From: an uncultured Blautia sp.
Lineage (GTDB): Bacteria > Bacillota > Clostridia > Lachnospirales > Lachnospiraceae
Assembly: GCF_937880195.1 (NCBI RefSeq)
Contig: NZ_CALFLA010000061.1
Coordinates: forward strand, 1-29,285
Direction: 5' to 3'
Length of the DNA: 29,285 bases
Shown here: one piece after another, positions 2,359 to 22,683 of the stretch
Layout: each line of letters begins with the position of its first letter
How positions within the stretch are numbered: the first letter of the stretch is position 1
Made by a program: the position numbers and the translations under genes
The notes under the pieces: model-generated
Seen by the model: the letters and a program-made list of their open reading frames with translations, nothing else
What the model was told of the DNA's origin: nothing
Databases searched by the model: none

Positions 2359-2370
2359 AGGAGGAGAAAC

Positions 2371-3249
2371 ATGAAAGGTATTATATTAGCAGGAGGTTCA
2401 GGAACCAGATTATATCCCCTGACAAAAGCGATTTCCAAGCAGATCATGCCGGTGTATGATAAGCCCATGATCTATTATCCACTTTCTACACTGATGCTGT
2501 CAGGTATCAGGGAGGTACTGATCATTTCCACACCGAGAGATCTTCCGGTATTTCAGGAACTTCTTGGAAGCGGAGAGCAGTTGGGAATGAGATTTGAGTA
2601 TGCAGTTCAGGAACAGCCAAGAGGTCTTGCAGACGCCTTTATCATTGGCGCTGATTTTATTGGAAACGATGCGGTTGCTCTTGTTCTGGGCGATAATATT
2701 TTTTACGGCCAGAGTTTTTCCAGAGTTCTTCAGAATGCTTACAAAAGAACTGAGGAGGAGAAAGGCGCTACGATTTTTGGATACTATGTAAGAGATCCAA
2801 GAGAGTACGGAGTAGTAGAGTTTGACGAAAACGGCAAAGCCCTTTCCATTGAGGAAAAGCCGGAGCATCCTAAGTCTAATTATGCAGTGCCGGGACTTTA
2901 CTTCTATGACAATGATGTTGTGGAAATTGCAAAAAATGTAAAGCCTTCTGCAAGAGGTGAGATCGAGATCACAAGCATCAATAACGAATACCTGAACAGG
3001 GGAACTCTGAAGGTAGAAACTCTGGGAAGAGGATTTGCATGGCTGGATACAGGAAACCATGATTCTCTTCTTGATGCGGCTGATTTTGTGTCTGCGTTCC
3101 AGAAACGCCAGGGACTTTATATTTCCTGTATTGAGGAGATTGCATATAAGAGAGGCTTTATCAATAAGGAGCAGCTTGTAGAACTGGCGCAGCCTCTTCT
3201 TAAAACTGCTTATGGAAAATATTTGATCGAAGTAGCGGAGGGCTTATAA
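2371..3249 (+). CDS. rfbA: Glucose-1-phosphate thymidylyltransferase
   Basis: First step of dTDP-L-rhamnose synthesis: dTTP plus glucose-1-phosphate gives dTDP-glucose and pyrophosphate. The 292-aa length is normal for RmlA/RfbA. The N-terminal nucleotide-binding loop is G8-G-S-G-T-R13 followed by LYPLT. Other family marks are [56 protein letters not shown] and the late [13 protein letters not shown]. It is preceded by an AAGGAGGAG ribosome site and followed by rfbC after one base, so the pair is probably translationally coupled. dTDP-glucose also feeds the dTDP-4-keto-6-deoxyglucose pool used by WecE upstream. The function is certain at family level. Confidence 0.97.
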
Positions 3250-3250
3250 A

Positions 3251-3820
3251 ATGGGTAAAATTACAGTAGAAACCTGTCATATTGAAGGACTTAAGGTGAT
3301 CACTCCCACTGTATTCGGAGATGAACGCGGATATTTTATGGAAACTTATAATTATAATGATTATAAGGCTGCAGGGATTGACCAGGAATTTGTGCAGGAC
3401 AATCAGTCCAGCTCCTGTAAGGGCGTGTTAAGAGGTCTTCATTTCCAGATCAATTATCCTCAGGATAAGCTGGTCCGGGTAGTCAGCGGAGAGGTTTATG
3501 ATGTTGCTGTTGACCTTAGAGAAGGCTCTCCTACTTATGGACAGTGGTATGGAGTGCTGCTTTCTGCAGAAAACAAAAAGCAGTTCTTTATCCCCAAGAA
3601 TTTTGCACACGGCTTCCTTGTGCTTTCTGATTCTGCAGAATTTGCATATAAGTGTACAGATTTTTACCATCCGAACGACGAGGGTGGACTTGCTTACAAC
3701 GATCCTGATATCGACGTAGAATGGCCCATACCAGAGGGAATGAAGCTGATCATGTCTGAGAAGGACCAGAAATGGGGAAGTTTTCAGGAATATTCCGCAA
3801 ACAGGAGTAAAAAGGATTGA
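3251..3820 (+). CDS. rfbC: dTDP-4-dehydrorhamnose 3,5-epimerase
   Basis: Third step of dTDP-L-rhamnose synthesis: epimerises dTDP-4-keto-6-deoxy-D-glucose at C3 and C5. It is 189 aa, typical of RmlC cupin enzymes. The catalytic His is H64 in LRGLHFQ and the catalytic Tyr is Y133 in FAYKCTDFY. Also present are DERGYFMETYN, QDNQSSS, GEVYDVAVDLR and IPKNFAHGFLVLSD. GGAGGG at 3237-3242 lies inside the end of rfbA. Its stop overlaps the TTG start of wzm. The dehydratase RfbB that makes its substrate is not in this window. Confidence 0.96.
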   Translation: MGKITVETCHIEGLKVITPTVFGDERGYFMETYNYNDYKAAGIDQEFVQDNQSSSCKGVLRGLHFQINYPQDKLVRVVSGEVYDVAVDLREGSPTYGQWYGVLLSAENKKQFFIPKNFAHGFLVLSDSAEFAYKCTDFYHPNDEGGLAYNDPDIDVEWPIPEGMKLIMSEKDQKWGSFQEYSANRSKKD

Positions 3821-4623
3821 AAAAAGAAACATGTCTGATCAGGGAACTGTACCGAAACAGAAGGCTGGTATTCTCCCTGGCAAAAAATGACTTTAAAACA
3901 AAATATGCAGGTTCCTATTTTGGAACTATCTGGGCCTTTGTTCAGCCTGTGGTGACAATCTGCGTTTACTGGTTTGTTTTTGGCCTGGCTCTTCGGGGCG
4001 GCGCAGATAGAGGAGTGCCTTTTGTACTCTGGCTGGTGGCAGGACTTGTTCCCTGGTTCTTTTTTCAGGATGGTTTGGTAGGAGGAACCAGCTCCCTTTT
4101 GGAGTATAATTATCTGGTAAAGAAGGTAGTTTTTAATATCAGGATCCTTCCTGTAGTAAAGGTGATCTCCGCAGGCTTTGTACACTGTTTTTTTGTATTG
4201 ATCGTTCTGGTGATATACACCTGCATGGGATATCCGCCAACCCTTTATGCGCTGCAGTTAATTTATTACAGCTTTTGCATCTTTATGCTGATTCTTGCAG
4301 TAACTTATTTTTCCAGCGCAGTAGTGGTGTTTTTCCGGGATCTCAGCCAGATCATCAACATCGGCCTTCAGGTAGGGGTGTGGGTAACGCCTATTATGTG
4401 GAATTTCAGCGACCTGGGACTTACAGGGATCCTGACAAAGATCCTGAAGCTGAATCCGGTATTTTACGTTGTCCAGGGATATAGGGAATCTCTGATCGAT
4501 CATGTGGGATTCTGGCAGCATCCGTGTTTAACCCTGTATTTTTGGGTATTTACACTTCTGCTGTTTTTCCTGGGAACCAGACTGTTCAAAAAACTTCAGG
4601 TGCATTTTGCAGATGTACTGTAG
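3817..4623 (+). CDS. wzm: ABC-2 type polysaccharide/teichoic acid exporter, permease subunit (Wzm/TagG-like)
   Basis: A 268-aa integral membrane subunit of an ABC exporter that moves undecaprenyl-linked glycan out of the cytoplasm. The amphipathic start contains LAKNDFKTKYAGSYFGTIWA, a hallmark of Wzm/TagG/KpsM permeases. About six membrane segments follow, with the signatures LVPWFFFQ and NPVFYVVQGYRE. It begins at TTG (3817), overlapping the rfbC stop TGA at 3818-3820. GGAG at 3804-3807 supports this start, and no in-frame ATG lies nearby. wzt follows after 12 bases. Because the partner Wzt carries a C-terminal glycan-binding domain, O-antigen-type export of a capped polymer is more likely than plain teichoic acid export (inference). 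Confidence 0.92.
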   Translation: MKKETCLIRELYRNRRLVFSLAKNDFKTKYAGSYFGTIWAFVQPVVTICVYWFVFGLALRGGADRGVPFVLWLVAGLVPWFFFQDGLVGGTSSLLEYNYLVKKVVFNIRILPVVKVISAGFVHCFFVLIVLVIYTCMGYPPTLYALQLIYYSFCIFMLILAVTYFSSAVVVFFRDLSQIINIGLQVGVWVTPIMWNFSDLGLTGILTKILKLNPVFYVVQGYRESLIDHVGFWQHPCLTLYFWVFTLLLFFLGTRLFKKLQVHFADVL

Positions 4624-4635
4624 AAGGAGAGAAGC

Positions 4636-5889
4636 ATGAGCGAATTTGCAATTCAGGTAAAGCATCTGGACAAGATGTATAAATTATATAATAAACCTTC
4701 AGACAGGCTCCGGGAAACCCTGGGGCTTAAGGTTCCTGTAAGGGAACATTACGCTCTCCGTGACGTCAGCTTTGATGTAAAACGGGGAGAAACTGTAGGA
4801 ATCATAGGAACAAACGGATCAGGCAAGTCTACGATCCTTAAGATTATTACCGGGGTTCTGAATCCTACAGACGGAGAGGTAACTGTAGACGGAAGGATTT
4901 CTGCCCTTCTTGAATTGGGAGCCGGATTTAATATGGAATATACAGGAATCGAAAACGTATATCTTAACGGAACCATGATGGGATTTTCCAAGGAAGAGGT
5001 AGAGGCAAGACTTCAGGATATTCTTGATTTTGCAGATATCGGAGATTTTGTTTACCAGCCGGTAAAATCATATTCCAGCGGTATGTTTGTCCGTCTGGCC
5101 TTTGCGGTCGCCATAAATATCGACCCGGAGATCCTGATCGTTGACGAGGCTCTTTCTGTGGGAGACGTGTTTTTTCAGGCAAAGTGTTACCGTAAGTTTG
5201 AGGAGTTCAAAAAACTTGGCAGGACAATACTTTTCGTAAGCCACGATCTCAGCAGCATTTCCCGGTATTGCGACAGGGTAATCCTTCTCAATAAGGGTGT
5301 GAAGCTTCAGGAAGGCTCGCCGAAAAAAATGGTGGATATGTATAAGCAGCTTCTGGTCGGACAGGACCCTGTAAAAGAGGAAGAAAAAAAACAACAAAAA
5401 GAAAACTGGAGCCAGCAGTTTCAGACAAATCCCAATATGCTGGAATATGGAAGCAAGCTGGCGGAAATTGTGGATTTTGCTGTTCTTGACGATAAGGGAC
5501 TGTGTACAAACACCATTGAAAAGGGCAGCAGCTTTCAGATACGGATGAAGATTGTTTTTCACGAAAATATCCAGGAGCCGATCATGGCTTATACCTTTAA
5601 GGATATTAAGGGAACGGAAATTACAGGGACAAACACACTGTTTGAAAAAATGAACGTGGAGCATTCTGACGCAGGAGATTCCTGTACCATAACCTTTACT
5701 CAGGATATGTTCCTTCAGGGAGGGGAATATCTTCTTTCCTTTGGCTGCACAGGCTACAGGGAAGGGGAATTTACAGTGTTCCACAGACTTTATGACGCAT
5801 GTAATATTACGGTTGTTTCCACAAAGAACACCGTAGGCTTTTTTGACATGGATTCAAAGGTGGAAATCCACTACGGAGAAGAATTATGA
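4636..5889 (+). CDS. wzt: ABC exporter ATPase with C-terminal carbohydrate-binding domain (Wzt)
   Basis: A 417-aa ATPase partner of Wzm. Its ATPase domain (about 1-245) has Walker A G58-T-N-G-S-G-K-S-T66, signature Y146-S-S-G-M, Walker B I166-L-I-V-D170-E171 and a switch His in FVSHDLSS. A charged linker (about 246-270) leads to a beta-sandwich Wzt C-terminal domain (about 275-417). That domain reads YGSKLAEIVDF-VLDDKG, an EPIMAYTFKD segment, and GTEITGTNT, the usual Wzt-C pattern. In the E. coli O9a and O8 systems this domain binds the modified non-reducing end of the finished chain and permits export. The next gene, overlapping by ATGA, encodes a methyltransferase/kinase-like protein of the kind that makes such an end cap. 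TagH-type ATPases usually lack this domain. Confidence 0.94.
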   Translation: MSEFAIQVKHLDKMYKLYNKPSDRLRETLGLKVPVREHYALRDVSFDVKRGETVGIIGTNGSGKSTILKIITGVLNPTDGEVTVDGRISALLELGAGFNMEYTGIENVYLNGTMMGFSKEEVEARLQDILDFADIGDFVYQPVKSYSSGMFVRLAFAVAINIDPEILIVDEALSVGDVFFQAKCYRKFEEFKKLGRTILFVSHDLSSISRYCDRVILLNKGVKLQEGSPKKMVDMYKQLLVGQDPVKEEEKKQQKENWSQQFQTNPNMLEYGSKLAEIVDFAVLDDKGLCTNTIEKGSSFQIRMKIVFHENIQEPIMAYTFKDIKGTEITGTNTLFEKMNVEHSDAGDSCTITFTQDMFLQGGEYLLSFGCTGYREGEFTVFHRLYDACNITVVSTKNTVGFFDMDSKVEIHYGEEL

Positions 5890-8072
5890 AAGAAAAGATC
5901 GGACAGGTAACTCTGGATGATACTTATTATCCGGGACAGGATTTATACAGCGACGGAGAGATAGAGGACGAAATGCTGGAAATTGCAAAAACATATTCCC
6001 AGGATCAGTGGAACGAAGTGATCGCCCAGCGCAAAAGCTGGCCTATTCTCTATCATTTTTCTCATGTGAGGGAAAATATTTTAAGCTGGCTGCCTTTTAC
6101 CGGCAAAGAAAGCGTGCTGGAAATCGGCTCCGGCTGCGGAGCCATTACAGGCGCCCTTTGCAAAAAGGCAAAGCAGGTGACTTGTATTGAACTTTCAAAA
6201 AAGAGAAGTGAGATCAATGCCTGGAGACATAAGGACTGCGGAAATCTAACCATTCTTATGGGTAACTTCCAGGAGATCGAGCCTGCGCTGACGGAGAAGT
6301 ACGACTATATTACTCTGATCGGCGTTTTTGAGTATGGAGAAAATTATATCCAGAGCAAAACGCCATACATTGATTTTCTGAATACCATTTCCCGCCATCT
6401 GAAACCGGGGGGACAGATCATCCTTGCCATCGAAAACCGTTTTGGTCTGAAATACTGGGCCGGATGTACGGAAGATCATTTTGGCACTCTTTTTGAAGGA
6501 CTGGAAGGATATCCAGAAACCAAAGGCGTCAAAACCTTTACTAAAAAAGAACTTACAGCTATTTTGGAAAAGGCTGGAAATTTAAAGGCAAGCTGGTATT
6601 ATCCATTCCCTGATTATAAGCTGCCAATGACTATTTATTCTGACAGAAGACTTCCCCTTAAGGGAGAGCTGAACCGGATGGAGGAGAATTTTGACAGGCT
6701 TCGTCTGCAGCTTTTCCAGGAGTCTGCTGTATATGATTCCCTTTTGGATAATGAGATGTTTCCTGAGTTTTCCAACTCTTTTCTGCTTCTGATCGGCAAA
6801 GAAGAGCAGAAGCCGGAAATAGTATATTCCAAGTTTTCTAATGAAAGAGATCAGAGATTTGCCATTCGCACAGACATTTGTGAACCGGGAAGGTTTGCCC
6901 GCTATGTAAAAAAACTTCCTGCCGTCCCTTCGGCAATGCCTCATATTAAGAATCTGGAATACATCCAGAGGGAACTGAACAGCCTTTACGAAAAAGAAGG
7001 TCTGGAGCTGAATAACTGTCGTTTTGAAAAAGACGGGGCTGTTCTGGAATATCTGGAGGGAGTTACACTGGAAGAGCGTCTGGATCAGCTTCTTTCTCAG
7101 GGAAAGACCGAGGAACTGGAAGAATTATTTTTCTTCTATCTCAAAAAGATCCGAAGTCTTCACGGAAAAACAAAATTTGAAAAAACACCGGAATTTATCA
7201 GGGTATTTGGAGACGCGCCGCTGGAGGATAAGAATTATGTGGCTTCCGGCATGTCAAATATTGACCTGGTTCCGGCAAACCTTTTGATCCAGAAGGACAG
7301 ACAGGTAGTGATCGATTATGAATGGACCTTCCGCTTCCCTATTCCGGCAAAGTTTATCCAGTATCGGATGATCCATTATTATCTGGAAACAGACAGCAAA
7401 CGTCACATACTGAAAGAAAGAGATTTCTATGGAAAAGCCGGAATCTCAGAAGAAGACCAGGCTGTTTTTGCAGAGATGGAGCGTAATTTCCAGAAATACA
7501 TGCAGGGAAATCATGTGCCTCTTCTTGCTATGTATGAGGACGTATCTCCGGGCAAGGTAGAAGTCCTTTCTTATTATGAACAGCGTCGGCTTGCCTGCGC
7601 AGAAAGAAGACTGCAGGTGTTTGCAGACTGTGGAAAGGATTTTAGAGAGGAGGATTCTCTTCTTTATCCTATGAGCCGTTTCGGCATTTCTATGGAGATG
7701 GAAATTCCTGAAAATGCTGAAAGACTTCGCCTTGATCCAGGGGAAGCAGCAGGAGGGCTGATGGTAAAGAGACTTGTCTTTGAGGACGGAGAAGCAGCCG
7801 CTTTTAGCACAAACGGATTCCCTATAGGAGAAAATGCCTGGTATTTTGGGGCTGGAGATCCTCAGCTGGTTATAAGCAATTTAAGAGGAAAGAAAAAACT
7901 TCAGATAGAAATTGAGATCATGAAGGAAAAAGAGGCAAGAGATGCTTTCTGGCAGAACTTATCCACGGTTTCAGCCCAAAAGGATGAAGAAATCCACAGA
8001 TTGAAAGATCAGATCCACCAGATGGAAAATACAAAGATCTGGAAATTATACAGAACAATCAGAAAAAAATAA
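5886..8072 (+). CDS. Methyltransferase plus kinase-like protein, WbdD-like candidate chain terminator
   Basis: A 728-aa cytoplasmic multidomain protein. Residues about 40-290 are a class I SAM methyltransferase: motif I is E79-I-G-S-G-C-G85, an acidic strand end follows at CIELS, then ITLIGVFEY (142-150) and LKPGGQIILAIENRFG. Residues about 310-520 look like a protein/aminoglycoside-kinase fold: EYLEGVTLEERL as a hinge-like strand, a catalytic-loop-like D460-L-V-P-A-N465, and a DFG-like D477 in VVIDYEW. The D, +5 N and later D pattern matches APH and choline kinases. Residues about 590-680 form a probable beta-sandwich (ERLRLDPGEAAGG, WYFGAGDPQLVI). The end is a short coiled coil and a basic tail with WKLYRTIRKK. 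The domain order and the link to Wzm/Wzt recall E. coli WbdD, which methylates and phosphorylates the O9a chain end. The kinase domain was inferred by eye, so its activity is uncertain. Confidence 0.72.
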   Translation: MKEKIGQVTLDDTYYPGQDLYSDGEIEDEMLEIAKTYSQDQWNEVIAQRKSWPILYHFSHVRENILSWLPFTGKESVLEIGSGCGAITGALCKKAKQVTCIELSKKRSEINAWRHKDCGNLTILMGNFQEIEPALTEKYDYITLIGVFEYGENYIQSKTPYIDFLNTISRHLKPGGQIILAIENRFGLKYWAGCTEDHFGTLFEGLEGYPETKGVKTFTKKELTAILEKAGNLKASWYYPFPDYKLPMTIYSDRRLPLKGELNRMEENFDRLRLQLFQESAVYDSLLDNEMFPEFSNSFLLLIGKEEQKPEIVYSKFSNERDQRFAIRTDICEPGRFARYVKKLPAVPSAMPHIKNLEYIQRELNSLYEKEGLELNNCRFEKDGAVLEYLEGVTLEERLDQLLSQGKTEELEELFFFYLKKIRSLHGKTKFEKTPEFIRVFGDAPLEDKNYVASGMSNIDLVPANLLIQKDRQVVIDYEWTFRFPIPAKFIQYRMIHYYLETDSKRHILKERDFYGKAGISEEDQAVFAEMERNFQKYMQGNHVPLLAMYEDVSPGKVEVLSYYEQRRLACAERRLQVFADCGKDFREEDSLLYPMSRFGISMEMEIPENAERLRLDPGEAAGGLMVKRLVFEDGEAAAFSTNGFPIGENAWYFGAGDPQLVISNLRGKKKLQIEIEIMKEKEARDAFWQNLSTVSAQKDEEIHRLKDQIHQMENTKIWKLYRTIRKK

Positions 8073-8108
8073 AATGCCGGACAAAAAGCGGCAGGATGAG
8101 GATAGAAC

Positions 8109-10526
8109 ATGGAAGAATTGCGATTCAGTATTGATGAACAAAAATATGACTTTAGACATGGAAAACGTCTTACCCTTGTAGGGTGGTACGTATCGCCTTT
8201 GGATCAGAAGATGGAATTTCGTCTTCTGGGCGACGGAGACGTACTTACGCTTCCTGATCCGCAAAGATATGAAAGGCCGGATGTAATAAATGCCCTGGGA
8301 AGAGAACAGGGGGAGTTCCTTCCAGGTTTTACATTGGAAATTACAGACGCAGACAAGCTGGCAGAGCAGTATGCTTCTGTGGAAGTGCTTCTGACAGACG
8401 GGAAAAGCTCTGTGGTTATCTGGAAAAAGACAAAAGAGGAGCTTCGAGAATTTCTGAGAGAAAGTCTCATCGAATACCATATTGACAGAGAAGAGGTTCT
8501 TTACGACACCATGTTAGAAATCCAGGGATGGGTCATGGATCAGATAGGAGAGGCAGAAGTCCTGTTTTTGAACGAGGATAAAAGCCCTGTTCCCTGCCGG
8601 ATGAGTCATGGAAGACGGCCTGACGTGGTGGAGAGACGCTCCCTGGATGAAGAATACAAAAATCAGGAAATAGGATTTCGGATTTCTGCCTCTCTGAAAG
8701 ATATTTCCGGCAAAAAAGCGCTTCTTTGCTTTCAGGGTTCTGCCGGAACAAAAACATATGAGATAGATCTTAAGAAGCTTAGAAAGGAAATGAATCCAGG
8801 AGGCTTTTTGGGACGATTCCGAAAAAAATCAGCACAGGGCACAGGAGATTATGAAAGCTGGCTTCGGAAACATTCTGTAAGCCGCAGAGAAATGCTTTTG
8901 CAAAAGCATGTGAAATTTCCCAAAAAACCTTTGATCAGTATTGTAATCCCTTTGTACTGTACTCCCCTGCCTTATCTTAAGGAACTGATCGATTCCATCA
9001 GGAAGCAGACCTACAAAAACTGGCAGCTTTGCCTTGCAGACGGAAGCCCTGACGATACGGTTTATGATTATCTCAGAAAGAATTACCGTCATGAGGTGAG
9101 GATCAGCTACAAAAAACTAAAGAAAAACGGCGGTATTTCTATAAATACCAATAAGGCCATTGAGCTTGCAAGAGGAGAGTACCTTCTGCTCTGCGACCAT
9201 GACGATACCCTGGAGCCAGACGCCCTTTATGAGATTGTCAAGGCCATCAACAGCCATGAACATCCTGATGTAATTTATACAGATGAGGATAAGATAAGCA
9301 TGGATGGGAAGCATTATTTTGATCCTCATTTTAAATCAGATTTTAATCTGTTCCGTCTCCGGGAAAACAATTATATCTGCCATATTTTTGCGGTAAGGCG
9401 AGAAATAGCAGAACAGACAGGATATTTCAGACCTGAGTTTGACGGCGCCCAGGATTTTGATTTTATTTTCCGGTGCTGTGAAAAGGCAGAGGAGATCATT
9501 CACATTCCCAAAGTGCTTTATCACTGGCGGTGTCATATGGAATCTACGGCAGCAGATCCGGAAAGTAAGGCATATGCTTTTGAAGCCGGAAGAAAGGCAG
9601 TAGAGGAGCATTACAGGAGAATGGGAATTGGGGCAGAAGTGGAAATGACAGAGCGCCCAGGCTGGTACAGAAGCCGGGTGGCAATTGAAGGGAATCCCTT
9701 AATTTCTGTGATCATTCCCAATAAGGATCATATTGAAGATCTTGAACTTTGCGTTTCTTCCATAGAAAAACGAAGCTCTTATAAAAATTATGAGATTCTG
9801 ATTGTAGAAAACAACAGCGAGGATGCTGCTACATTTGCCTTTTATGAAGAACTGCAAAAGCGTTTTCAAAGAGTAAGAGTTCTTACCTGGACAAGAGAAT
9901 TTAATTATTCTGCCATTAATAATTTTGCCGCAGAAAAGGCAAATGGGGAGTATCTGCTTTTCCTGAATAATGACGTGGAGATCCTTAGCTCCAGATGGAT
10001 GGAGGAGATGCTCCAGATCTGTCAGCAGAAAGCGGTTTCTCTTGTGGGGGCAAAGCTGTACTACCCGGATGATACCATTCAACATGCAGGTGTTGTTCTT
10101 GGTCTTGGCGGAATTGCCGGACATATTATGTGCCGCGCTTCCAGAGAGGATGCAGGATATTTTGGACGGATGATCAGCGTTCAGGAGATAAGCGCAGTAA
10201 CGGCAGCCTGTATGATGACCAAGGCAGAAGACTTCCGGGCTGTGGGAGGCTTTGACGAAGGCTTCCAGGTGGCGTTTAACGATATTGACCTTTGTATGAA
10301 GATCAGGGCAGCAGGCAAAAAGGTGGTCTTTACTCCATATGCAGAGCTGTACCATTATGAATCAAAATCCAGAGGACTGGAAGATACGCCTGAAAAGCAG
10401 TTCCGCTTTGACAAGGAAGTGAAGCGTTTTGAAGAAAAATGGGGAGAGCAGCTAAAGGAAGGCGATCCTTATTACAGTCCTAATCTATCAAAAACAGAAG
10501 GGGACTGCTCCCTGAAAGAAGACTGA
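8109..10526 (+). CDS. Large tandem GT2 glycosyltransferase with N-terminal beta-sandwich modules
   Basis: An 805-aa cytoplasmic or membrane-associated glycosyltransferase, probably extending the lipid-linked glycan and possibly a rhamnosyltransferase. Residues about 1-230 hold two similar modules, each with a GW turn, an R-x-DV motif and a following GF: LVGWYVS..RPDV..PGF and IQGWVMD..RPDV..IGF. A first GT-A domain starts at P274 (PLISIVIPLY) with DGSPDD and D363-H-D-D366. It continues through FDGAQDFDFIFRC and HIPKVLYHWR. A second GT-A domain starts at P530 (PLISVIIPNKD) with VENNSED and N620-N-D-V-E624, then IQHAGVVLG, FNDIDLC and YHYESKSRGLEDTPEK. The acceptor and linkage cannot be read from sequence. 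It is followed after 15 bases by a paralogue of the same design, and a third copy lies at 18345. Two active sites in one chain could add two sugars or alternate linkages (inference). Confidence 0.88.
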   Translation: MEELRFSIDEQKYDFRHGKRLTLVGWYVSPLDQKMEFRLLGDGDVLTLPDPQRYERPDVINALGREQGEFLPGFTLEITDADKLAEQYASVEVLLTDGKSSVVIWKKTKEELREFLRESLIEYHIDREEVLYDTMLEIQGWVMDQIGEAEVLFLNEDKSPVPCRMSHGRRPDVVERRSLDEEYKNQEIGFRISASLKDISGKKALLCFQGSAGTKTYEIDLKKLRKEMNPGGFLGRFRKKSAQGTGDYESWLRKHSVSRREMLLQKHVKFPKKPLISIVIPLYCTPLPYLKELIDSIRKQTYKNWQLCLADGSPDDTVYDYLRKNYRHEVRISYKKLKKNGGISINTNKAIELARGEYLLLCDHDDTLEPDALYEIVKAINSHEHPDVIYTDEDKISMDGKHYFDPHFKSDFNLFRLRENNYICHIFAVRREIAEQTGYFRPEFDGAQDFDFIFRCCEKAEEIIHIPKVLYHWRCHMESTAADPESKAYAFEAGRKAVEEHYRRMGIGAEVEMTERPGWYRSRVAIEGNPLISVIIPNKDHIEDLELCVSSIEKRSSYKNYEILIVENNSEDAATFAFYEELQKRFQRVRVLTWTREFNYSAINNFAAEKANGEYLLFLNNDVEILSSRWMEEMLQICQQKAVSLVGAKLYYPDDTIQHAGVVLGLGGIAGHIMCRASREDAGYFGRMISVQEISAVTAACMMTKAEDFRAVGGFDEGFQVAFNDIDLCMKIRAAGKKVVFTPYAELYHYESKSRGLEDTPEKQFRFDKEVKRFEEKWGEQLKEGDPYYSPNLSKTEGDCSLKED

Positions 10527-10541
10527 TAAGTGAGGTTGGAT

Positions 10542-12986
10542 ATGTCAAGAGAGATTTTTGAAGTAACAAAAGACCGATTTCATTTAAAGGATTCCTGCCA
10601 GTATATTTTGCAGGGAACCTGGCCGAAAGAGGCGAAAATGCATGCGTTTCTGGATGGGGTGGAGCTTAAATCCCAGATTCAGTGCTATGAGGTGGTCAGC
10701 GCGCTGGAGCGGTTTAAGGACCCGGATCTGATGCGGGGAGAGAGGATCACTGCTTCTGTAGAGCTTCCCGAATCTTTGGAGGGAAGCAGAAAGCTGTCTG
10801 TTTATGCAGACCTTCCAGATAAGAGGATCTGCTGGTTTCAGGTTTCTGCAAGGGAGCTTGAAGCAAGAAGAGGACGTCCCCAGTTTTTTATTGAGGAAGA
10901 AAAGGTTCAGCAGGGCTTTTTGCGCGTCAGAGGCTGGGCGATAGCGGACGAACCGGTAAAGATTCAGATTTTTGATGAAAATAAAAATAAGGTTTCCGCA
11001 GAGATCTTAAGAACAGAGCGTGTGGATGTAGAACAGCTTTATGAAGAAATGGATCATGAAGACAAAACAGGATTTTTTGTAGAGCTTACCAACCTTACAG
11101 GAAAACTTGTTTATCTTGTGTTTTATGCAGGTGATACAAAGTCTGTTCATGTAGTTCATTTGAATCCTGCAGTTGTTTTACGCAAAAAAGTCCAGAAATA
11201 TGCAAAAAAAGGGCTGCGTTACTGGAAAAGCCAGGGAAGCGCGGCAATGGCAGGAAAAATCATTTCAAAGGTAAAGACAGCTTCTACAAGAGAGATCCCT
11301 TATCAGAAATGGATTCTTCGTCATCTTCCAAATAATAAGGAACTGGAAAAACAGAGAAAGACCCAGTTTGAATATCAGCCGAAGATCTCTATTATAGTGC
11401 CTTTATATAAAACACCGGAAAAATATCTCCGACAGCTTGTGGAAACAGTAAAGGCGCAGACATATACCAACTGGGAGCTTTGTCTTTCTGACGGAAGCGG
11501 GGAGAACTCTCCCATTGAGAAACTTTTAGAAAATCTTGCGGCTTCTGATAAGAGGATCAAGGTGATTTCCCATAAGGTGCCTCTCCAGATCTCGGAGAAT
11601 ACAAACGCCGGAATAGAATCCAGTACAGGCGATTATATTGCTTTTGCAGACCATGACGACGAGCTTACTCCTCATGCGCTTTTCCAGTGTGTGAAGGCGC
11701 TCAATGAAAATCGTGATATTAGGATTCTTTATTCAGATGAGGATAAGATGTCCATGGACGGACATAAATTTTTCCAGCCGCATTTTAAGCCGGATTATAA
11801 CCCGGATCTTCTCTGTACAGTAAATTATATCTGCCATCTTTTTGTGGTGGACAAAAAGATTATTGATCAGGTGGGAATGCTTCGGAAGGAATTTGATGGA
11901 GCCCAGGACTATGATTTCATTTTCCGCTGTGTAGAAACGGTAAAGCCGGAAGAAATTTATCATATTCCAAAGATCCTTTATCACTGGCGCTGCCACGAGG
12001 ATTCCACGGCCGAAAATCCAGAAAGCAAAACCTATGCTTTTGAGGCGGGAAAAAGAGCTATAGAGGAGCATTATAAAAGAACGGGAATCCATGCAGAGGT
12101 TCTGCAGGGAGAGTTTCTGGGACTTTACAGAACCAGGTTTATCCGTGACCATGATCCCTTGATCTCGATTATCATTCCCAATAAGGATCATATTGATGAT
12201 CTGAAGCGATGCATGGATTCTATTGACAAAAAATCCACCTACCAGAATTATGAATATATCATTGTGGAAAACAACAGCACCCAGGAAGAAACTTTCCAGT
12301 TCTATAAGAAACTGGAGGCGGAAAATCCAAAAGTACATGTGGTGTACTGGGACAGGGAATTTAATTATTCTGCTATCAATAACTATGGCGCGGGATTTGC
12401 AAAGGGAGAATATATTCTTCTTTTGAATAATGATACGGAGATCATCAACGAAGACTGTCTGGAGCAACTTCTGGGTTACTGCATGAGAAGCGATGTAGGG
12501 GCAGTAGGAGCAAGGATGTACTACGAGGACGATACCATCCAGCATGCAGGTGTTGTGATCGGATTCGGCGGAATTGCAGGACACTGTTTTGTCCTTCAGC
12601 CAAGAGGTACCACAGGATACTGCCATAGGATCATCTGCGCTCAGGACTACAGCGCGGTAACGGCAGCTTGTATGATGGTAAAACGGTCTGCTTTTGATGA
12701 AGTGGGAGGCCTTACGGAAGAGCTGGCAGTTGCTTTTAACGATATTGATTTCTGTATGAAGCTGAGAAGCGCAGGCTATCTGATCGTCTATAATCCTTAT
12801 GCGGAGCTGTATCATTATGAGTCAAAGTCCAGAGGACTTGAGGACACGCCGGAAAAGGTGGCGCGGTTTAACAAAGAGATCCAGATCTTTGAGAGACGCT
12901 GGCCGGACATTATGAGAAACGGGGATCCATATTATAATCCCAATCTGACGTTGAAAAGCCAGGACTTTTCACTGAAAAGAATATAG
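10542..12986 (+). CDS. Large tandem GT2 glycosyltransferase, paralogue of the preceding gene
   Basis: An 814-aa paralogue of the upstream enzyme. I chose the ATG at 10542 because GAGG at 10532-10535 sits six bases before it. The GTG at 10530 would add four residues but has no convincing ribosome site. The N-terminal part (about 1-215) again has a beta-sandwich module with RGWAIAD, R-VDV and TGFFVEL. The first GT-A domain begins at P280 (PKISIIVPLY) with DGSGEN and D370-H-D-D373. The second begins at P539 (PLISIIIPNKD) with VENNS and N629-N-D-T-E633. The C-terminal block YHYESKSRGLEDTPEK is shared with the other copies. Divergence is strongest in the N-terminal region and after the first active site, consistent with a different donor or acceptor. 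It probably acts with the neighbouring enzyme on the same polymer, since the two are adjacent and co-directional. Confidence 0.87.
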   Translation: MSREIFEVTKDRFHLKDSCQYILQGTWPKEAKMHAFLDGVELKSQIQCYEVVSALERFKDPDLMRGERITASVELPESLEGSRKLSVYADLPDKRICWFQVSARELEARRGRPQFFIEEEKVQQGFLRVRGWAIADEPVKIQIFDENKNKVSAEILRTERVDVEQLYEEMDHEDKTGFFVELTNLTGKLVYLVFYAGDTKSVHVVHLNPAVVLRKKVQKYAKKGLRYWKSQGSAAMAGKIISKVKTASTREIPYQKWILRHLPNNKELEKQRKTQFEYQPKISIIVPLYKTPEKYLRQLVETVKAQTYTNWELCLSDGSGENSPIEKLLENLAASDKRIKVISHKVPLQISENTNAGIESSTGDYIAFADHDDELTPHALFQCVKALNENRDIRILYSDEDKMSMDGHKFFQPHFKPDYNPDLLCTVNYICHLFVVDKKIIDQVGMLRKEFDGAQDYDFIFRCVETVKPEEIYHIPKILYHWRCHEDSTAENPESKTYAFEAGKRAIEEHYKRTGIHAEVLQGEFLGLYRTRFIRDHDPLISIIIPNKDHIDDLKRCMDSIDKKSTYQNYEYIIVENNSTQEETFQFYKKLEAENPKVHVVYWDREFNYSAINNYGAGFAKGEYILLLNNDTEIINEDCLEQLLGYCMRSDVGAVGARMYYEDDTIQHAGVVIGFGGIAGHCFVLQPRGTTGYCHRIICAQDYSAVTAACMMVKRSAFDEVGGLTEELAVAFNDIDFCMKLRSAGYLIVYNPYAELYHYESKSRGLEDTPEKVARFNKEIQIFERRWPDIMRNGDPYYNPNLTLKSQDFSLKRI

Positions 12987-12998: not shown

Positions 12999-13859
12999 AT
13001 GAAGGTCTTAGTAACAGGAGTAAAGGGTCAGCTTGGCCACGATGTAATGAATGAGCTTGCAAAGCGGGGATATGAGGGCGTTGGCGTAGATGTAGAAGAA
13101 ATGGACATTACAGACGCTGAGGCAGTCCGCAGAGTAATGGAGGAAGTCCGCCCTGATAAAATGGTTCACTGCGCCGCATGGACGGCTGTGGATGCAGCAG
13201 AAGACCAGCAGGAGATCTGTCGTAAGGTAAATGTGGACGGAACAGAAAATATTGCAAAAATGTGTGGAGAACTGGACATTCCAATGATCTATTTAAGCAC
13301 AGATTATGTGTTCGACGGAGAGGGAACACGCCCTTGGGAGCCGGATGATCCGGTGGTAAAACCTCTGAACGTTTATGGACAGACAAAATACGAGGGTGAG
13401 CTTGCCGTAGAGAAATACACAGATAAATATTATATTGTCCGTATTGCCTGGGTATTTGGCATCAATGGAAAAAACTTTATCAAGACCATGCTGAACCTTG
13501 GAAAGACTCATGATACACTGACAGTTGTTGACGACCAGATTGGAACGCCTACTTATACTTATGACCTTGCAAGACTTCTTGTGGATATGCTGGAAAAAGA
13601 AGAGTATGGAAAATACCATGTGACAAATGAGGGCGGATATATTTCATGGTGCGATTTTGCCAAAGAAATTTTCCGTCAGGCTGGAATGGAAGTAAATGTA
13701 ACCCCGGTAAGTTCAGATCAGTACCCGGCTAAGGCAAAACGTCCTTCTAACAGCCGTATGGAAAAGAAAAAGCTGGAAGAACGCGGCTTTGCGCCTCTTC
13801 CAACCTGGCAGGATGCCCTTTCCCGTTATCTGGAAGAACTGAAAAAGGCAGAAGCATGA
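12999..13859 (+). CDS. rfbD: dTDP-4-dehydrorhamnose reductase
   Basis: Final step of dTDP-L-rhamnose synthesis: NAD(P)H-dependent reduction of dTDP-4-keto-L-rhamnose. It is a 286-aa short-chain dehydrogenase of the extended RmlD type. The Rossmann motif is G7-V-K-G-Q-L-G13, followed by MDITD. The catalytic Y126-x3-K130 pair lies in NVYGQTKYEGE, and STDYVFDGEG and DDQIGTPTYTYDLA are RmlD signatures. A GGAGGG ribosome site precedes it. It is separated from rfbA and rfbC by the exporter and glycosyltransferase genes, but the spacing on both sides fits one operon, and its stop overlaps the next start (ATGA). Its presence makes rhamnose the best-supported sugar of this glycan. Confidence 0.96.
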   Translation: MKVLVTGVKGQLGHDVMNELAKRGYEGVGVDVEEMDITDAEAVRRVMEEVRPDKMVHCAAWTAVDAAEDQQEICRKVNVDGTENIAKMCGELDIPMIYLSTDYVFDGEGTRPWEPDDPVVKPLNVYGQTKYEGELAVEKYTDKYYIVRIAWVFGINGKNFIKTMLNLGKTHDTLTVVDDQIGTPTYTYDLARLLVDMLEKEEYGKYHVTNEGGYISWCDFAKEIFRQAGMEVNVTPVSSDQYPAKAKRPSNSRMEKKKLEERGFAPLPTWQDALSRYLEELKKAEA

Positions 13860-16651: not shown

Positions 16652-16708
16652 ACAGATTTCCTCCTAAAAATTTTCATGGGACAGTCTGACCTTGGATAAT
16701 TCGACCGT

Positions 16709-16746
16709 AAAAAAGGACCTGCGCTCCTAAGATTGGAACACAGGTC
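16709..16746 (-). terminator. Riboswitch expression-platform terminator of the oadB leader
   Basis: On the minus strand, arms 16735-16746 and 16716-16727 form a 12-bp stem with two G-U pairs and a seven-base loop, followed by C and six U (16709-16714). The 5' arm includes the 3' strand of aptamer helix P1 (16738-16744), so P1 and the terminator exclude each other. That is the layout of a transcriptional ON switch: ligand-stabilised P1 should allow oadB transcription. Confidence 0.85.
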
Positions 16747-16845
16747 TTGTCGTATACCAAAGTGTAAAGGTATAGATTAAGCCAGGACCACAGGCCCACG
16801 GTGTTGACTTAATCGCACCGGATGATGCTGACTACTCCCCTATAT
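16738..16845 (-). promoter_or_regulatory. yybP-ykoY (Mn2+-sensing) riboswitch aptamer upstream of oadB
   Basis: Read on the minus strand, the leader contains the family hallmarks GGGGAGUAG at its 5' end and ACAAGACC at its 3' end. P1 pairs AUAUAGG (16839-16845) with CCUGUGU (16738-16744). A small hairpin (GCAUC/GGUGC) follows the first hallmark. The second long helix opens with GAUUAAG and closes with CUUAAUC, with GUC just inside. A last helix (UAUACC/GGUAUA) precedes the second hallmark. Order and internal loops match the L. lactis yybP-ykoY aptamer as I recall it. Known members sense Mn2+ and mostly control metal exporters. Here the only gene directly downstream is an OadB-type pump subunit. 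Confirmation would need a covariance-model match to RF00080. Confidence 0.87.
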
Positions 16846-16852
16846 CAAGTGT

Positions 16853-18344: not shown

Positions 18345-20201
18345 ATGGATAAAAAAAACAGTTCAGCAGGCAGGATCCAGTGGGGGAAAATGTTCAAAAA
18401 ACTGAATCCCTATACAATCCAAAAGGGATTCCGCTACCTGAAGCATTATGGGCCAAAGGAGTTCTGGATCCGCCTTCATGAGCGATTTGAGCCGGAAGAG
18501 GTTCCTTACGGTCCTTGGTATGAGGCATACATTCCAACAGAGGCAGAGCTGGAAAAGCAGAGAAAGCGCCGCTTTGCATATGAGCCGCTGATCAGCGTGG
18601 CTGTTCCTGCGTATTGTACGCCGGAGAAATTTCTGGTTCAGATGATCGATTCGCTGAAGGCGCAGACTTACGGAAACTGGGAGCTTTGTATTGCCAATGG
18701 AAGTCCGAAGGACGAAGCCATGAAGCGCGTTCTGGATTCTTATGCAGGAGATGCCCGCATTCGTGTCAGCATTCTTACAGAAAATAAAGGGATCGCAGGC
18801 AATACAAACGCGGCGCTTGATATGGCAAAGGGGGAGTTTGTAGGGCTTTTGGATCATGATGATCTTCTTGCGCCAAACGCCCTTTACGAAGTCGTAAAGG
18901 CTTTTAATGAAGATCAGGAGCTGGATGCTGTTTACACAGACGAAGATAAGGTTACTACGGAGCTGGACGAGCATTTCCAGCCCCATCTGAAACCGGATTT
19001 TAACCTGGATCTTCTGCGTTCTAACAATTATATCTGTCATTTTTTTGTGGCGCGTCGAAGCGTAGTGAAAAAGGCAGGAGGCTTCCGACAGGAATTTGAC
19101 GGAGCCCAGGATCATGATTTTATTTTCCGCTGTGTGGAAAATTCCAGAAAAGTAGGTCATATTCCAGAGATTTTGTATCACTGGAGAACTCATAAGGCAT
19201 CTACGGCAGACAATCCCGCCAGCAAGATGTATGCCTTTGACGCAGGAAAGAGAGCCATCGAGGCTCATCTTAAGAGAACCGGCTCTGAGGGAACTGTAAG
19301 TCATACGCCGGATCTTGGCTTTTTCCGGGTAAAATATCCGGTACAGGGAGAACCTCTTGTTTCCATAATCATACCCAATAAGGATGAAAAAGAAACTCTT
19401 AAGGCATGTATCCAGTCCATTCGGGAAAAAACAGAGTATTCCAATTATGAGATCATCATTGTAGAAAACAATAGTACCACAGAGGAGATTTTTCAATATT
19501 ATAAGGAACTGTCCAAAGATCCGAAGATCCGTTTGATCCGCTGGAAAAAAGAATTTAATTATTCTGCCATTAACAATTACGGCGTTCGTCATGCTAAGGG
19601 AGACTATCTTCTGTTCCTGAATAATGACGTTACAGTGATCACACCTGGCTGGATCAAGGAAATGCTGGGGGTCTGCCAGCGGCCTGAGGTAGGGGCTGTG
19701 GGCGTGAAACTAATCTATCCTGACAATACCATTCAGCATGCAGGCTGCGTGATCGGAATTGGAGGAATTGCAGGCCATATGTTTGTAGACATGCCTGCAA
19801 ACCGCACCGGATATCTCCATAAGGCGTCGATCCTTCAGGATATGAGCGCAGTTACAGCCGCTTGTATGATGATGAAGAAATCCGTATTTGATGAGGCAGG
19901 AGGTTTTACAGAAAAATTAAGCGTTGCCTTTAATGATGTGGATCTCTGCCTGAAAGTGCGTAAAAATCATAATCTGATCGTTTATGATCCCTATGTGCAG
20001 CTTTATCATATGGAATCAAAGACAAGAGGCGCAGAGGACAGCACAGAAAAAGTACGCAGGTTCCAGGAAGAAATCGAGTATATGCGTTGTCAGTGGATCG
20101 ATATTCTGAAAAAAGGAGATCCCTATTATAATAAGAATCTTTCTCTGACAAAATGGAATTATTCCCTCCGTCCTCTTCCGGGGATGGGGAAGAAGCAGTA
20201 A
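18345..20201 (+). CDS. Tandem GT2 glycosyltransferase, shorter third paralogue
   Basis: A 618-aa paralogue of the enzymes at 8109 and 10542. It lacks their roughly 200-residue N-terminal beta-sandwich region and instead starts with about 60 residues that are basic and aromatic (KGFRYLKHYGPKEFWIRL). The first GT-A domain starts at P81 (PLISVAVPAY) with NGSPKDE and D170-H-D-D173, then FDGAQDHDFIFRC. The second starts at P337 (PLVSIIIPNKD) with VENNS and N426-N-D-V, then IQHAGCVIG and FNDVDLC. The C-terminal block YHMESKTRGAEDSTEK aligns with the others. GAGG lies six bases before the ATG. It probably builds the same glycan from its own promoter. Donor and linkage are unknown. A rhamnosyltransferase role would fit the rml genes. 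Confidence 0.88.
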   Translation: MDKKNSSAGRIQWGKMFKKLNPYTIQKGFRYLKHYGPKEFWIRLHERFEPEEVPYGPWYEAYIPTEAELEKQRKRRFAYEPLISVAVPAYCTPEKFLVQMIDSLKAQTYGNWELCIANGSPKDEAMKRVLDSYAGDARIRVSILTENKGIAGNTNAALDMAKGEFVGLLDHDDLLAPNALYEVVKAFNEDQELDAVYTDEDKVTTELDEHFQPHLKPDFNLDLLRSNNYICHFFVARRSVVKKAGGFRQEFDGAQDHDFIFRCVENSRKVGHIPEILYHWRTHKASTADNPASKMYAFDAGKRAIEAHLKRTGSEGTVSHTPDLGFFRVKYPVQGEPLVSIIIPNKDEKETLKACIQSIREKTEYSNYEIIIVENNSTTEEIFQYYKELSKDPKIRLIRWKKEFNYSAINNYGVRHAKGDYLLFLNNDVTVITPGWIKEMLGVCQRPEVGAVGVKLIYPDNTIQHAGCVIGIGGIAGHMFVDMPANRTGYLHKASILQDMSAVTAACMMMKKSVFDEAGGFTEKLSVAFNDVDLCLKVRKNHNLIVYDPYVQLYHMESKTRGAEDSTEKVRRFQEEIEYMRCQWIDILKKGDPYYNKNLSLTKWNYSLRPLPGMGKKQ

Positions 20202-21282: not shown

Positions 21283-22683
21283 ATGCAGGATAATCAAAAG
21301 ACTTTTGCACAGCGCATGATGTTGCTGGATATCTTTGTCCTTGTTGTTTCCTACATTATCGCGTGGTATCTGCGATTTATGGGACCTTTTGCCTATTCGG
21401 CAGAAAAAGGACTTAGTTTTTCTCAGTATATGCTTGCGCTGGTGTTTATCGTGCCGGGATATATGCTGCTTTATCAGGCTTTTACCCTTTATGAGCCTCT
21501 GCATATGCAGGGACGCAGGCTTATGCTTGCCAATATCATAAAGGCCAATGTTCTGGGAATGCTGGCTTTTGTATTCCTTTTGTACATGCTGAAAGAAGAG
21601 CATTATTCCCGACTGACCGTATATATTTTCTGCGCAGTAAACATTCTTTTGGAATGGGGCGCAAGAATGGCGGTTTTCCTTTTTCTTCAGAATATGCGGA
21701 AAAAGGGTCTGAACCAGAAGCAGATGATACTGGTAGGGTACAGCAGGGCTGCGGAGGAGTATATTGACAGGATCGAGGCCAATCCCCAGTGGGGTTACGT
21801 GGTCAGAGGCATCTTGGATGACAATGTCCCTGCAGGCACAGTATATAAAGGAATTAAGGTGATCGGCAGAATTGCCAATCTGACAGTGATCCTTCCGGCA
21901 AACAGGCTGGATGAGATCGCCATTACCCTGGGGCTCAGCGAATACTACCGTCTGGAAGAAATTGTGGCCATGTGCGAAAAATCAGGCGTGCATACAAAAT
22001 TTATTCCTGATTATAATAAGATCATACCTACAAAACCATACACAGAGGATATCCTGGGACTTCCGGTGATCAACATCCGATACGTGCCTTTAAATAATAC
22101 CTTTAACGCCATGGTGAAGCGAGTGATGGACATTTTGGGCTCCATTGCCGCCATTATCGTGTCTTCTCCGGTGATGCTCCTTATGTGCATCCTGATCAAG
22201 GCTACCTCTCCGGGGCCGCTGATCTATAAGCAGGAGAGGGTAGGACTTCACAACAAAACCTTCTGGATGTACAAGTTCCGCTCCATGGAGCTGCAGCCGG
22301 AAGCTGAGGAAAAAAAGGCGTGGACAGTGAAGAACGATCCCAGAGTAACAGGGATCGGCAAATTTATGCGAAGGACAAGTATTGATGAGCTTCCGCAGCT
22401 TTTTAACATTTTAAGAGGAGACATGAGCCTTGTGGGGCCAAGACCGGAGCGTCCTTTCTTTGTGGAAAAGTTCCGGGAGGAGATTCCCAGATATATGGTA
22501 AAACACCAGGTTCGTCCGGGACTGACCGGATGGGCCCAGGTCAATGGATATCGTGGAGATACCTCCATCAGGAAACGTATTGACTGTGACCTTTATTACA
22601 TTGAAAACTGGAGCATTGGATTTGATATCAAGATTCTGTTCCTGACAATTTTTAAAGGTTTCATAAATAAAAACGCATATTAA
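21283..22683 (+). CDS. Polyprenyl-phosphate sugar-1-phosphate transferase (WcaJ/WbaP-type initiator)
   Basis: A 466-aa membrane enzyme that starts glycan synthesis by moving a sugar-1-phosphate from a nucleotide sugar to undecaprenyl phosphate. Four N-terminal membrane helices (about 12-120) are followed by a Rossmann-like middle domain (about 145-250, QMILVGYSRAAEEYIDRI). A fifth hydrophobic segment at about 280-305 precedes the catalytic domain. That domain has KQERVGLHNKTFWMYKFRSM (YKFRSM from Y330), the D368-E-L-P box in RTSIDELPQLFNILRGDMS, V384-G-P-R-P388, and VRPGLTGWAQVNGYRGDTS. It ends in the usual FDIKILFLTIFKGF. The first sugar (glucose, galactose or an N-acetylated sugar) is not clear from sequence. 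A GAGGTG site precedes the ATG. The LCP gene follows after 16 bases, pairing chain initiation with chain attachment. Confidence 0.93.
   Translation: MQDNQKTFAQRMMLLDIFVLVVSYIIAWYLRFMGPFAYSAEKGLSFSQYMLALVFIVPGYMLLYQAFTLYEPLHMQGRRLMLANIIKANVLGMLAFVFLLYMLKEEHYSRLTVYIFCAVNILLEWGARMAVFLFLQNMRKKGLNQKQMILVGYSRAAEEYIDRIEANPQWGYVVRGILDDNVPAGTVYKGIKVIGRIANLTVILPANRLDEIAITLGLSEYYRLEEIVAMCEKSGVHTKFIPDYNKIIPTKPYTEDILGLPVINIRYVPLNNTFNAMVKRVMDILGSIAAIIVSSPVMLLMCILIKATSPGPLIYKQERVGLHNKTFWMYKFRSMELQPEAEEKKAWTVKNDPRVTGIGKFMRRTSIDELPQLFNILRGDMSLVGPRPERPFFVEKFREEIPRYMVKHQVRPGLTGWAQVNGYRGDTSIRKRIDCDLYYIENWSIGFDIKILFLTIFKGFINKNAY

Follow-up and report, generated by a model that had tools for sequence, protein, structure and literature searches.

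Gene content and domain architecture of the locus

The window (the whole stretch of 29,285 nucleotides analyzed here) carries dTDP-rhamnose supply genes, a Wzm/Wzt exporter, GT2-GT2 glycosyltransferases, an LCP gene, and a gene for a 728-aa methyltransferase-kinase (Table 1). The Wzt and 728-aa open reading frames are both present as originally predicted, overlapping by ATGA, and Wzt does carry the C-terminal carbohydrate-binding domain claimed for it, scoring 146 bits against Wzt_C (cut-off 30.4) and 86.1 bits against ABC_tran (cut-off 25); the best PDB sequence match to its residues 6-397 is 8dku, a 404-aa ABC transporter ATPase. The LCP gene is 14.6 kb downstream of the 728-aa open reading frame and is tied to the putative terminator by position, with two minus-strand genes in between.

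Table 1. Genes of the window and domains of the 728-aa protein
Feature	Position	Strand	Basis
RmlA-like glucose-1-phosphate thymidylyltransferase, dTDP-rhamnose supply	2371..3249	+	ORF; identity by eye from sequence
RmlC-like epimerase, dTDP-rhamnose supply	3251..3820	+	ORF; identity by eye
Wzm, ABC-2 permease of glycan exporter	3817..4623	+	Pfam ABC2_membrane E 1.7e-13
Wzt, exporter ATPase with C-terminal carbohydrate-binding domain, 417 aa	4636..5889	+	Pfam ABC_tran E 4e-24; Wzt_C E 9.9e-43
Wzt_C carbohydrate-binding domain, presumed cap reader	5440..5850	+	Wzt residues 269-405
728-aa methyltransferase-kinase, presumed chain terminator	5886..8072	+	ORF, 42-sequence alignment, model, profile comparison
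SAM methyltransferase domain, residues about 16-307	5931..6806	+	Pfam, model, fold search, hhalign
APH-like kinase domain, residues about 308-572	6807..7601	+	Model
Catalytic loop D460....N465 and metal-binding D477-x-E479	7263..7322	+	Invariant in 42/42
Beta-sandwich, residues 575-678	7608..7919	+	Model; aligns with its counterpart in ORF6-O7-like proteins
One helix of 34 residues (681-714), putative short coiled coil	7926..8027	+	Model
Short basic C-terminal helix, residues 717-727	8034..8066	+	Model
GT2-GT2 glycosyltransferase, presumed polymerase part	8109..10526	+	Pfam; 41% identity to GT2-GT2 tail of Pseudomonas ORF6-O7-like protein
Second GT2-GT2 glycosyltransferase	10530..12986	+	Pfam
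RmlD-like reductase, dTDP-rhamnose supply	12999..13859	+	ORF; identity by eye
Third GT2-GT2 glycosyltransferase	18345..20201	+	Pfam; 42% identity to GT2-GT2 tail of same Pseudomonas protein
Undecaprenyl-phosphate sugar-1-phosphate transferase, presumed chain initiation	21283..22683	+	TIGR03023, 502.8 bits vs cut-off 410.75
LCP-family glycopolymer transferase, presumed wall attachment	22700..24376	+	LytR_cpsA_psr E 1.5e-27

A whole-protein model of the 728-aa product (pLDDT 88.5), a kinase fold search, and domain profiles give the order methyltransferase, kinase, Ig-like/beta-sandwich, and coiled coil, with the coil being short. The first two domains thus follow one another as had been proposed, and the SAM methyltransferase is recognized by Pfam (Methyltransf_12, E 3e-10 at residues 78-177). 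The kinase matches no Pfam or NCBIfam family above cut-off, and there is no kinase among the 13 Pfam families at E<=1 or the best 25 of 26 NCBIfam families at E<=0.1. Because methyltransferases fill the fold search with the whole model, a kinase-only model was made, and its fold search places a kinase fold in region 310-520, where the original prediction expected one; the protein has the bilobal fold, D....N, and D-x-E of an APH-like kinase. The predicted pattern of D460, N465, and D477 sits as described and, together with E479, is conserved without exception in the 42 aligned sequences (the window protein and 41 homologues, 39-81% identity). The motif is also present in 116 of the 120 homologues listed, with the other four (430-563 aa) not spanning it, and in all 55 hits of a further protein search. 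The locus also gives a likely function to a kinase family that is invisible to Pfam.

The coil appears in the model as one 34-residue helix, in keeping with the short coiled coil predicted, and no ruler is evident in the protein; because the coil is short, the WbdD ruler is not transferable as such. The sandwich, which the original prediction did not describe, is separated from a terminal Trp by 61-80 residues in 98 of 121 proteins (those measurable). Amphipathicity of the C-terminal helix is not significant, with 364 of 2000 shuffles scoring equally high.

Relationship to known chain terminators

The protein had been proposed to be a WbdD-like capping protein. The methyltransferase-kinase order and the kinase fold agree with this, but WbdD is not its closest known counterpart: it is absent from the 23 PDB chains matched at E<=1 (phmmer, 728-aa protein), which are methyltransferases and one chance hit. 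Domain by domain, ORF6-O7-like proteins of Pseudomonas do match. In Foldseek comparisons with the whole model, WbdD ranks 4, 6, 8, and 23 over 504-538 columns, although with low TM-scores (0.28-0.30 by target), and a Rickettsia protein methyltransferase (5dpl) aligns over 610 columns, longer than WbdD, such that long alignments are not WbdD-specific; with the kinase-only model, WbdD is not among the 50 matches listed, which speaks neither for nor against a WbdD-like kinase. As described for E. coli O9a and K. pneumoniae O3 (PMC3482155), WbdD shares a methyltransferase, a kinase, a helical tail, and a partner Wzt that reads the cap. However, its kinase is described as Src-like, whereas the window kinase matches the APH group; its coiled-coil region lies in residues 460-708, whereas the window protein has a single 34-residue helix and no long ruler; and the available part of that paper describes no sandwich of the kind at residues 575-678. 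The WbdD methyltransferase has a phosphate site at H132, H133, and R203; in the window methyltransferase, K189 and H198 are candidate residues for a positive patch that may accommodate phosphate.

A better comparator than WbdD is the N-terminal half of ORF6 from Klebsiella pneumoniae O7, described in 2024 as comprising a methyltransferase, an APH-like kinase, an Ig-like module, and a coiled coil, and shown to place methyl-phosphate on terminal rhamnose as a methyl-phosphate terminator (PMC11231755). Terminators of this type have been proven only recently, in Gram-negative bacteria. As a stand-in for Klebsiella ORF6 we used the ORF6-O7-like Pseudomonas protein P0122, taken as an orthologue because its residue numbering agrees with the published ORF6 positions; the 728-aa protein aligns with it over three domains (E 2e-45), at 25% identity to this Pseudomonas counterpart. 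All three globular domains match Pseudomonas ORF6-O7-like proteins, with hhalign giving 100% (E 2e-56) for the methyltransferase and 95% (E 2e-8, 62 columns) for the sandwich; the kinase profile match is limited to 142 columns that start at the hinge and reach into the C-lobe. Residues at the catalytic sites are also at equivalent positions, as mapped via P0122: D460 aligns with P0122 D443, the ORF6 catalytic Asp being D441, and six SAM-site residues (Y21, Y56, G81, G83, E102, and Y150) correspond to ORF6 Y28, Y66, G91, G93, E112, and Y158, with position 102 being Asp in some relatives. The two systems further share a domain order that includes an APH-like kinase without prior annotation, homologous GT2-GT2 enzymes, a Wzt with a binding domain, and a rhamnose glycan (PMC11231755). 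They differ in that the window host is Gram-positive, its GT2-GT2 enzymes are on separate genes, its coil has 34 residues, its cluster includes an LCP gene, and Bacillota members are often split or have a decayed methyltransferase.

The terminator type demonstrated in Klebsiella thus has Bacillota relatives. What is new, going by gene and domain comparisons, is a Bacillota branch that lies in rml/Wzm/Wzt-C clusters, often with LCP, and has a short coil and, in several genera, split genes. Among the matches listed in a literature search with subscription papers mostly outside its scope, no title or abstract opening reports the ORF6-O7 terminator type in Bacillota, and in the available part of the glucorhamnan-cluster literature we found nothing on a methyltransferase-kinase enzyme (PMC10112845). 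The predicted Lcin_0519 family of Legionella and others is a kinase-methyltransferase, frequently with a coiled coil, that adjoins Wzt and Wzm in some of the genomes (PMC9758233); by description it resembles the window protein, and it may be the same family or another one.

Linkage to Wzt-C exporters and LCP genes

A search of 196 genomes gave 136 with a match at E<=0.001, mostly short and to the methyltransferase alone, and 23 carriers at the cut-off of E<=1e-30, counting the center genome G004, a known carrier. The predicted association with Wzt-C exporters holds up well, with such an exporter nearby in 20 of these 23 carriers and, in a separate count, in 4/4 in the Paenibacillus class, so that the family is not found mostly elsewhere; the other three of the 23 (G014, G121, and G167; loci L047, L049, and L050) have no nearby Wzt_C. 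Two additional carriers (G255 and G325), missed at E<=1e-30 and found from the Wzt_C side, are excluded from this count. Separately, L051, a distant relative, is not situated near an exporter. In 8 of the 16 related flanks retrieved, an LCP gene directly follows a sugar-phosphate transferase gene; no LCP gene is seen in the other eight, of which two were taken on the wrong side and some reach a contig end.

A distinct Wzt-C group accompanies the methyltransferase-kinase family. Over 52 Bacillota rows, the label changes once on the tree of the binding domain and three times on that of the ATPase domain. Of these rows, 19 lack the family: 18 are regions that score highly for Wzt_C, drawn from 46 genomes with Wzt_C but no match at E<=1e-30, and one is the second Wzt_C gene in G392. 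L069 was excluded because its genome (G121) has the family on another contig; L053 and L054, which lie outside Bacillota, were also excluded. A single clade is not rejected on the ATPase tree (AU p 0.69), so plain co-inheritance of the whole module could account for the pattern, and we dropped the idea that the terminator is followed more closely by the binding domain of Wzt than by its ATPase domain. Because Citrobacter and Pseudomonas Wzt-C domains group apart from those of Bacillota, the two sets need not recognize the same cap.

These patterns bear on whether methyl-phosphate instead decorates side or internal sugars, neither ending the chain nor gating export, which we regard as unlikely. 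The three loci with no Wzt_C nearby, the position of L051, and the shortness of a coil that in WbdD is the ruler are all consistent with decoration, but the linkage in 20/23 carriers and the accompanying Wzt-C group argue against it, as does the Klebsiella homologue, which modifies the chain end in a way on which export depends (PMC11231755).

Proposed chain termination and the possible nature of the cap

Both modeled folds, the conservation of catalytic residues, the domain homology to ORF6-O7-like proteins, the Wzt-C linkage, and the partial LCP linkage are observed; from these we infer a reaction and where it acts, the sequence of steps, gating, and wall attachment. We consider it likely that the 728-aa protein is a chain terminator making a methyl-phosphate cap that is read by Wzt-C, prior to LCP-mediated wall joining. 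The protein would terminate a rhamnose-containing, ABC-transporter-dependent surface glycan: its APH-like kinase domain would phosphorylate a hydroxyl on the sugar at the non-reducing end of the lipid-linked chain, and its methyltransferase domain would next methylate that terminal phosphate. The methyl-phosphate would halt elongation and act as the tag bound by the Wzt C-terminal domain for export through Wzm/Wzt, and the LCP enzyme would then join the exported chain to the wall. Put simply, the two-headed kinase-methyltransferase of a Blautia-like gut bacterium probably caps a surface sugar chain for recognition by the neighboring exporter. This locus is a named, testable candidate, in common gut bacteria, for the means by which Gram-positive bacteria judge a wall glycan to be finished.

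The cap could instead be a methyl group on a sugar hydroxyl, with the kinase fold a structural relic, although we think this improbable. The literature does include a methyl cap for an ABC-exported rhamnan in a Gram-positive bacterium: WsaE of Geobacillus stearothermophilus has a methyltransferase fused to rhamnosyltransferases, is encoded beside Wzm/Wzt, and is proposed to add a 2-O-methyl cap to an S-layer glycan, with no kinase mentioned in the available part of the source (PMC2943079), which differs from the cap proposed here; the methyltransferase is also the sole domain of the 728-aa protein recognized by Pfam. However, conservation in the family is highest at the catalytic residues of the kinase, whereas decay affects the methyltransferase, and kinase activity has been demonstrated for the homologue ORF6-O7 (PMC11231755).

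A plausible alternative, though not the one we favor, is that termination is really the work of the kinase and the cap is a phosphate, plain or cyclic, read mainly as such by Wzt-C, with methylation optional and lost in some lineages although still performed by the window enzyme. Asp460 is present in 39 and Asn465 in all 40 of the kinase-bearing rows read, whereas 9/38 rows fail a crude test of the methyltransferase site, seven of them in loci with the family-group Wzt-C (the 595-aa copy of L048, L059, L065, L066, L068, L073, and L074), and in L067 the methyltransferase is reduced to a 187-aa remnant. The Klebsiella enzyme in vitro gives complete phosphorylation and incomplete methylation (PMC11231755). 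Moreover, the ABC-exported rhamnan of the C. difficile SLCT-11 S-layer is reported from MS and NMR to carry 2,3-cyclophospho-rhamnose at its non-reducing end, a cyclic phosphate without methyl (PMC6254364). In favor of a methyl-phosphate cap, the window methyltransferase site is fully conserved, and L048 retains both activities on two proteins, as its second copy has an intact methyltransferase and no kinase loop. In addition, five of the eight decayed loci (L048, L065, L068, L073, and L074) form one group in both trees, so the losses are fewer than the loci, and a methyltransferase may be encoded elsewhere in those genomes.

Since some members keep the kinase while the methyltransferase is decayed, phosphorylation looks like the core step. 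More tentatively, and with some doubt, the end phosphate rather than methyl-phosphate as such may be the general export ticket in Bacillota: a Pfam-dark APH-like kinase, often on its own gene, would write it, methylation would be optional and lost in some, a cluster-specific Wzt-C group would read it before LCP fixation, length would be set without a long ruler, and the same kinase family would make the SLCT-11 terminal phosphate. The family suggests where to seek the enzyme behind the C. difficile phosphate cap; the word kinase occurs zero times in the main text of the SLCT-11 paper (PMC6254364), and C. difficile is not among the names in the 55-hit protein search (a Clostridium relative as query, most hits nameless). 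Separate methyltransferase and kinase genes occur in several Bacillota genera, and hits named as Clostridium beijerinckii in the 55-hit search include a fused form of 787 aa and a separate one of 482 aa, perhaps from different strains. These natural splits provide ready single-activity proteins, such as the naturally separate kinase half of Blautia hansenii (L011, 10909-12198).

The glycan cluster and its exporter linkage

The 728-aa protein lies in the glycan cluster of a Blautia-like Lachnospiraceae host (see the table), and is 77-81% identical in the nearest named genomes. Among 391 genomes from the class that includes Blautia caecimuris (Clostridia), its methyltransferase-kinase family is found in 23 (E<=1e-30) and Wzt_C in 67 (E<=1e-5), with Wzt_C present in 21 of the 23 family carriers against 3.9 expected (hypergeometric, 8e-16). 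In 20 carriers Wzt_C is on the same contig, at most about 4.1 kb away and mostly adjoining; the exceptions are G014, with an adjoining exporter ATPase that has no binding domain, G121, with Wzt_C on a different contig from the family member, and G167, a third carrier lacking a linked Wzt_C. A second set of 299 genomes, from the class of Paenibacillus (Bacilli), has four carriers at E<=1e-20, all with an adjacent Wzt_C, although two of them (G006 and G008) were known as carriers before the count. With 20/23 and 4/4 linked, the family keeps company with Wzt-C exporters, as originally predicted, rather than occurring mostly away from them; no exporter is near the distant relatives L050 and L051. 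An LCP gene directly follows the sugar-phosphate transferase gene in 8 of 16 related flanks; among the 16, two (L098 and L106) cover wholly or mostly the upstream side and some others stop at a contig end.

Features of the glycan cluster in the window
Feature	Coordinates	Remarks
rml-type genes		within the 29 kb window; recognised by eye
Wzm	3817-4623	
Wzt	4636-5889	Wzt_C 146 bits (cut-off 30.4)
728-aa protein	5886-8072	ATGA overlap with the Wzt gene
GT2-GT2 glycosyltransferases		three in the window
Undecaprenyl-phosphate sugar-1-phosphate transferase	21283-22683	
LCP protein	22700-24376	

For the roughly 280 residues ahead of the first GT2 domain in two large glycosyltransferases (8109-8936 and 10530-11387), no Pfam match exceeds the cut-off. 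The cluster is broken at 15515-18187 by two genes on the minus strand, whose products look by eye like a decarboxylase beta-subunit and a D-Ala-D-Ala carboxypeptidase; a carboxypeptidase similar to the latter is encoded at 1087-2358. The LCP gene closes with Gly/Ser/Asp-rich tandem repeats (23933-24275; periods 48, 36, 21 and 15), and LCP tail length may therefore differ among strains.

Likeness to ORF6-O7 terminators

As described in PMC11231755, Klebsiella O7 ORF6 comprises a methyltransferase, an unannotated kinase similar to AmiN (an aminoglycoside kinase), an Ig-like module, a coiled coil and two GT2 modules, and in vitro it phosphorylates and methylates O3 of the terminal rhamnose; the D441A variant is inactive and fails to restore exported O antigen. 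The orthologues named there are from alpha- and gammaproteobacteria and cyanobacteria.

Searching plasmids with the 728-aa protein (tblastn) yielded five matching records, two of them strong: Citrobacter braakii pF217-3 (rmlBACD, a transposase, Wzm, Wzt and a 649-aa protein) and Pseudomonas asturiensis pCC1524 (Wzm, Wzt and the 1457-aa protein P0122). P0122 is taken as a stand-in for ORF6-O7, as its Y28, Y66, G91, G93, E112 and Y158 carry exactly the published numbers and its catalytic Asp is at 443 rather than 441; these six SAM-site residues, the catalytic Asp and Asn448/Asp461/Glu463 (P0122 numbering) are kept in all 100 aligned rows, which include P0122 and were drawn from 121 proteins of suitable length. 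P0122 and the 728-aa protein align in one main HSP spanning three domains (BLASTP, 25% identity, E 2e-45). Against ORF6-O7-like proteins, hhalign gave 100% for the methyltransferase domain (E 2e-56), 97.0% for the kinase (E 8e-11, over 142 columns that take in the hinge and C-lobe only) and 95% for the beta-sandwich (E 2e-8), compared with 0.13-0.33% for three mismatched domain pairs. P0122 also shares 41-42% identity, through its GT2-GT2 tail, with the 805-aa and 618-aa glycosyltransferases of the window. Overall, this Gram-negative protein looks like a window-type presumed terminator fused to window-type glycosyltransferases. The core of the capping-protein idea is sound, but its WbdD comparison is not the closest one; the family is better filed with the ORF6-O7-N terminators (the N-terminal half of ORF6-O7).

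There are Gram-positive precedents. In Geobacillus, WsaE is proposed to terminate a rhamnan through 2-O-methylation so that Wzm/Wzt can export it (PMC2943079). In Clostridioides difficile SLCT-11, a 2,3-cyclophospho-rhamnose identified by MS and NMR ends an ABC-exporter rhamnan, giving chemical support for a phosphate end cap in Clostridia; its authors compare the cap's role to that of the O9a phosphate, naming no enzyme for it in their Discussion (PMC6254364).

Split enzymes and methyltransferase decay

Methyltransferase and kinase are separate ORFs in Paenibacillus (L010 and L012), Blautia hansenii (L011, four-base overlap at 10909-10912) and Clostridium weizhouense (L061, whose kinase is identical to protein P0243), and also at loci L045, L046, L047, L064 and L066. 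The split falls at about residues 302-310 (728-aa numbering) throughout, except at L045, where some 98 bases are shared between the two ORFs; at L046 a stretch weakly matching coiled-coil families comes after the separate kinase, and then GT2-GT2. Separate methyltransferase and kinase genes of the family also accompany Wzm and a Wzt with Wzt_C (3783-9724) in L107, a human faecal record deposited as 'UNVERIFIED: Bacteriophage sp.' (MT836085.1), which is probably bacterial DNA because reading by eye recognised no phage gene.

Among 40 kinase-bearing rows, many closely related and two (L053 and L056) read by eye, Asn465 and Glu479 are invariant, and Asp460 and Asp477 are each kept in 39, with Glu replacing the former in L051 and the latter in Citrobacter L053. 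Among the matches listed in wider searches, the kinase motif is present in 116/120 and 55/55 homologues and in 120/120 ORF6-O7-like proteins. A crude methyltransferase site test (Y21, G81, G83) is passed by 29 of 38 rows, a count excluding L052, L053 and L054; the site is altered in L048 (595-aa copy), L050, L051, L059, L065, L066, L068, L073 and L074, and L067 has a methyltransferase remnant only. Telling is L048 (7346-11605), where an intact methyltransferase without the kinase loop lies near a decayed methyltransferase with an intact kinase, the two copies apparently dividing the work. Relative to the known ORF6-O7-N terminators, the Gram-positive clusters, short coil, splits and an apparently optional methyltransferase would be new.

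Wzt binding domains

In a tree of binding domains from 52 Bacillota Wzt proteins, one branch (support 89.7) separates the 33 family-linked domains from the others, and Gram-negative binding domains are set apart from the Bacillota ones. Co-evolution of binding domain and terminator could produce the family-linked grouping; for the ATPase domain of the same 52 proteins, a single clade of family-linked members is not rejected (AU p 0.69), and co-inheritance would account for the binding-domain grouping as well as co-evolution does. The L088 Wzt (2351-3607), with no adjoining family member, has its ATPase domain among the family-linked ones and its binding domain outside them, a possible domain swap, although long branches make this reading unsure. 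At six Wzt-C loci without the kinase family (L076, L081, L082, L087, L089 and L090), adjoining methyltransferase-like proteins recognised by eye, with openings including MEFTGERFIP and EYWDERF, may represent another type of terminator.
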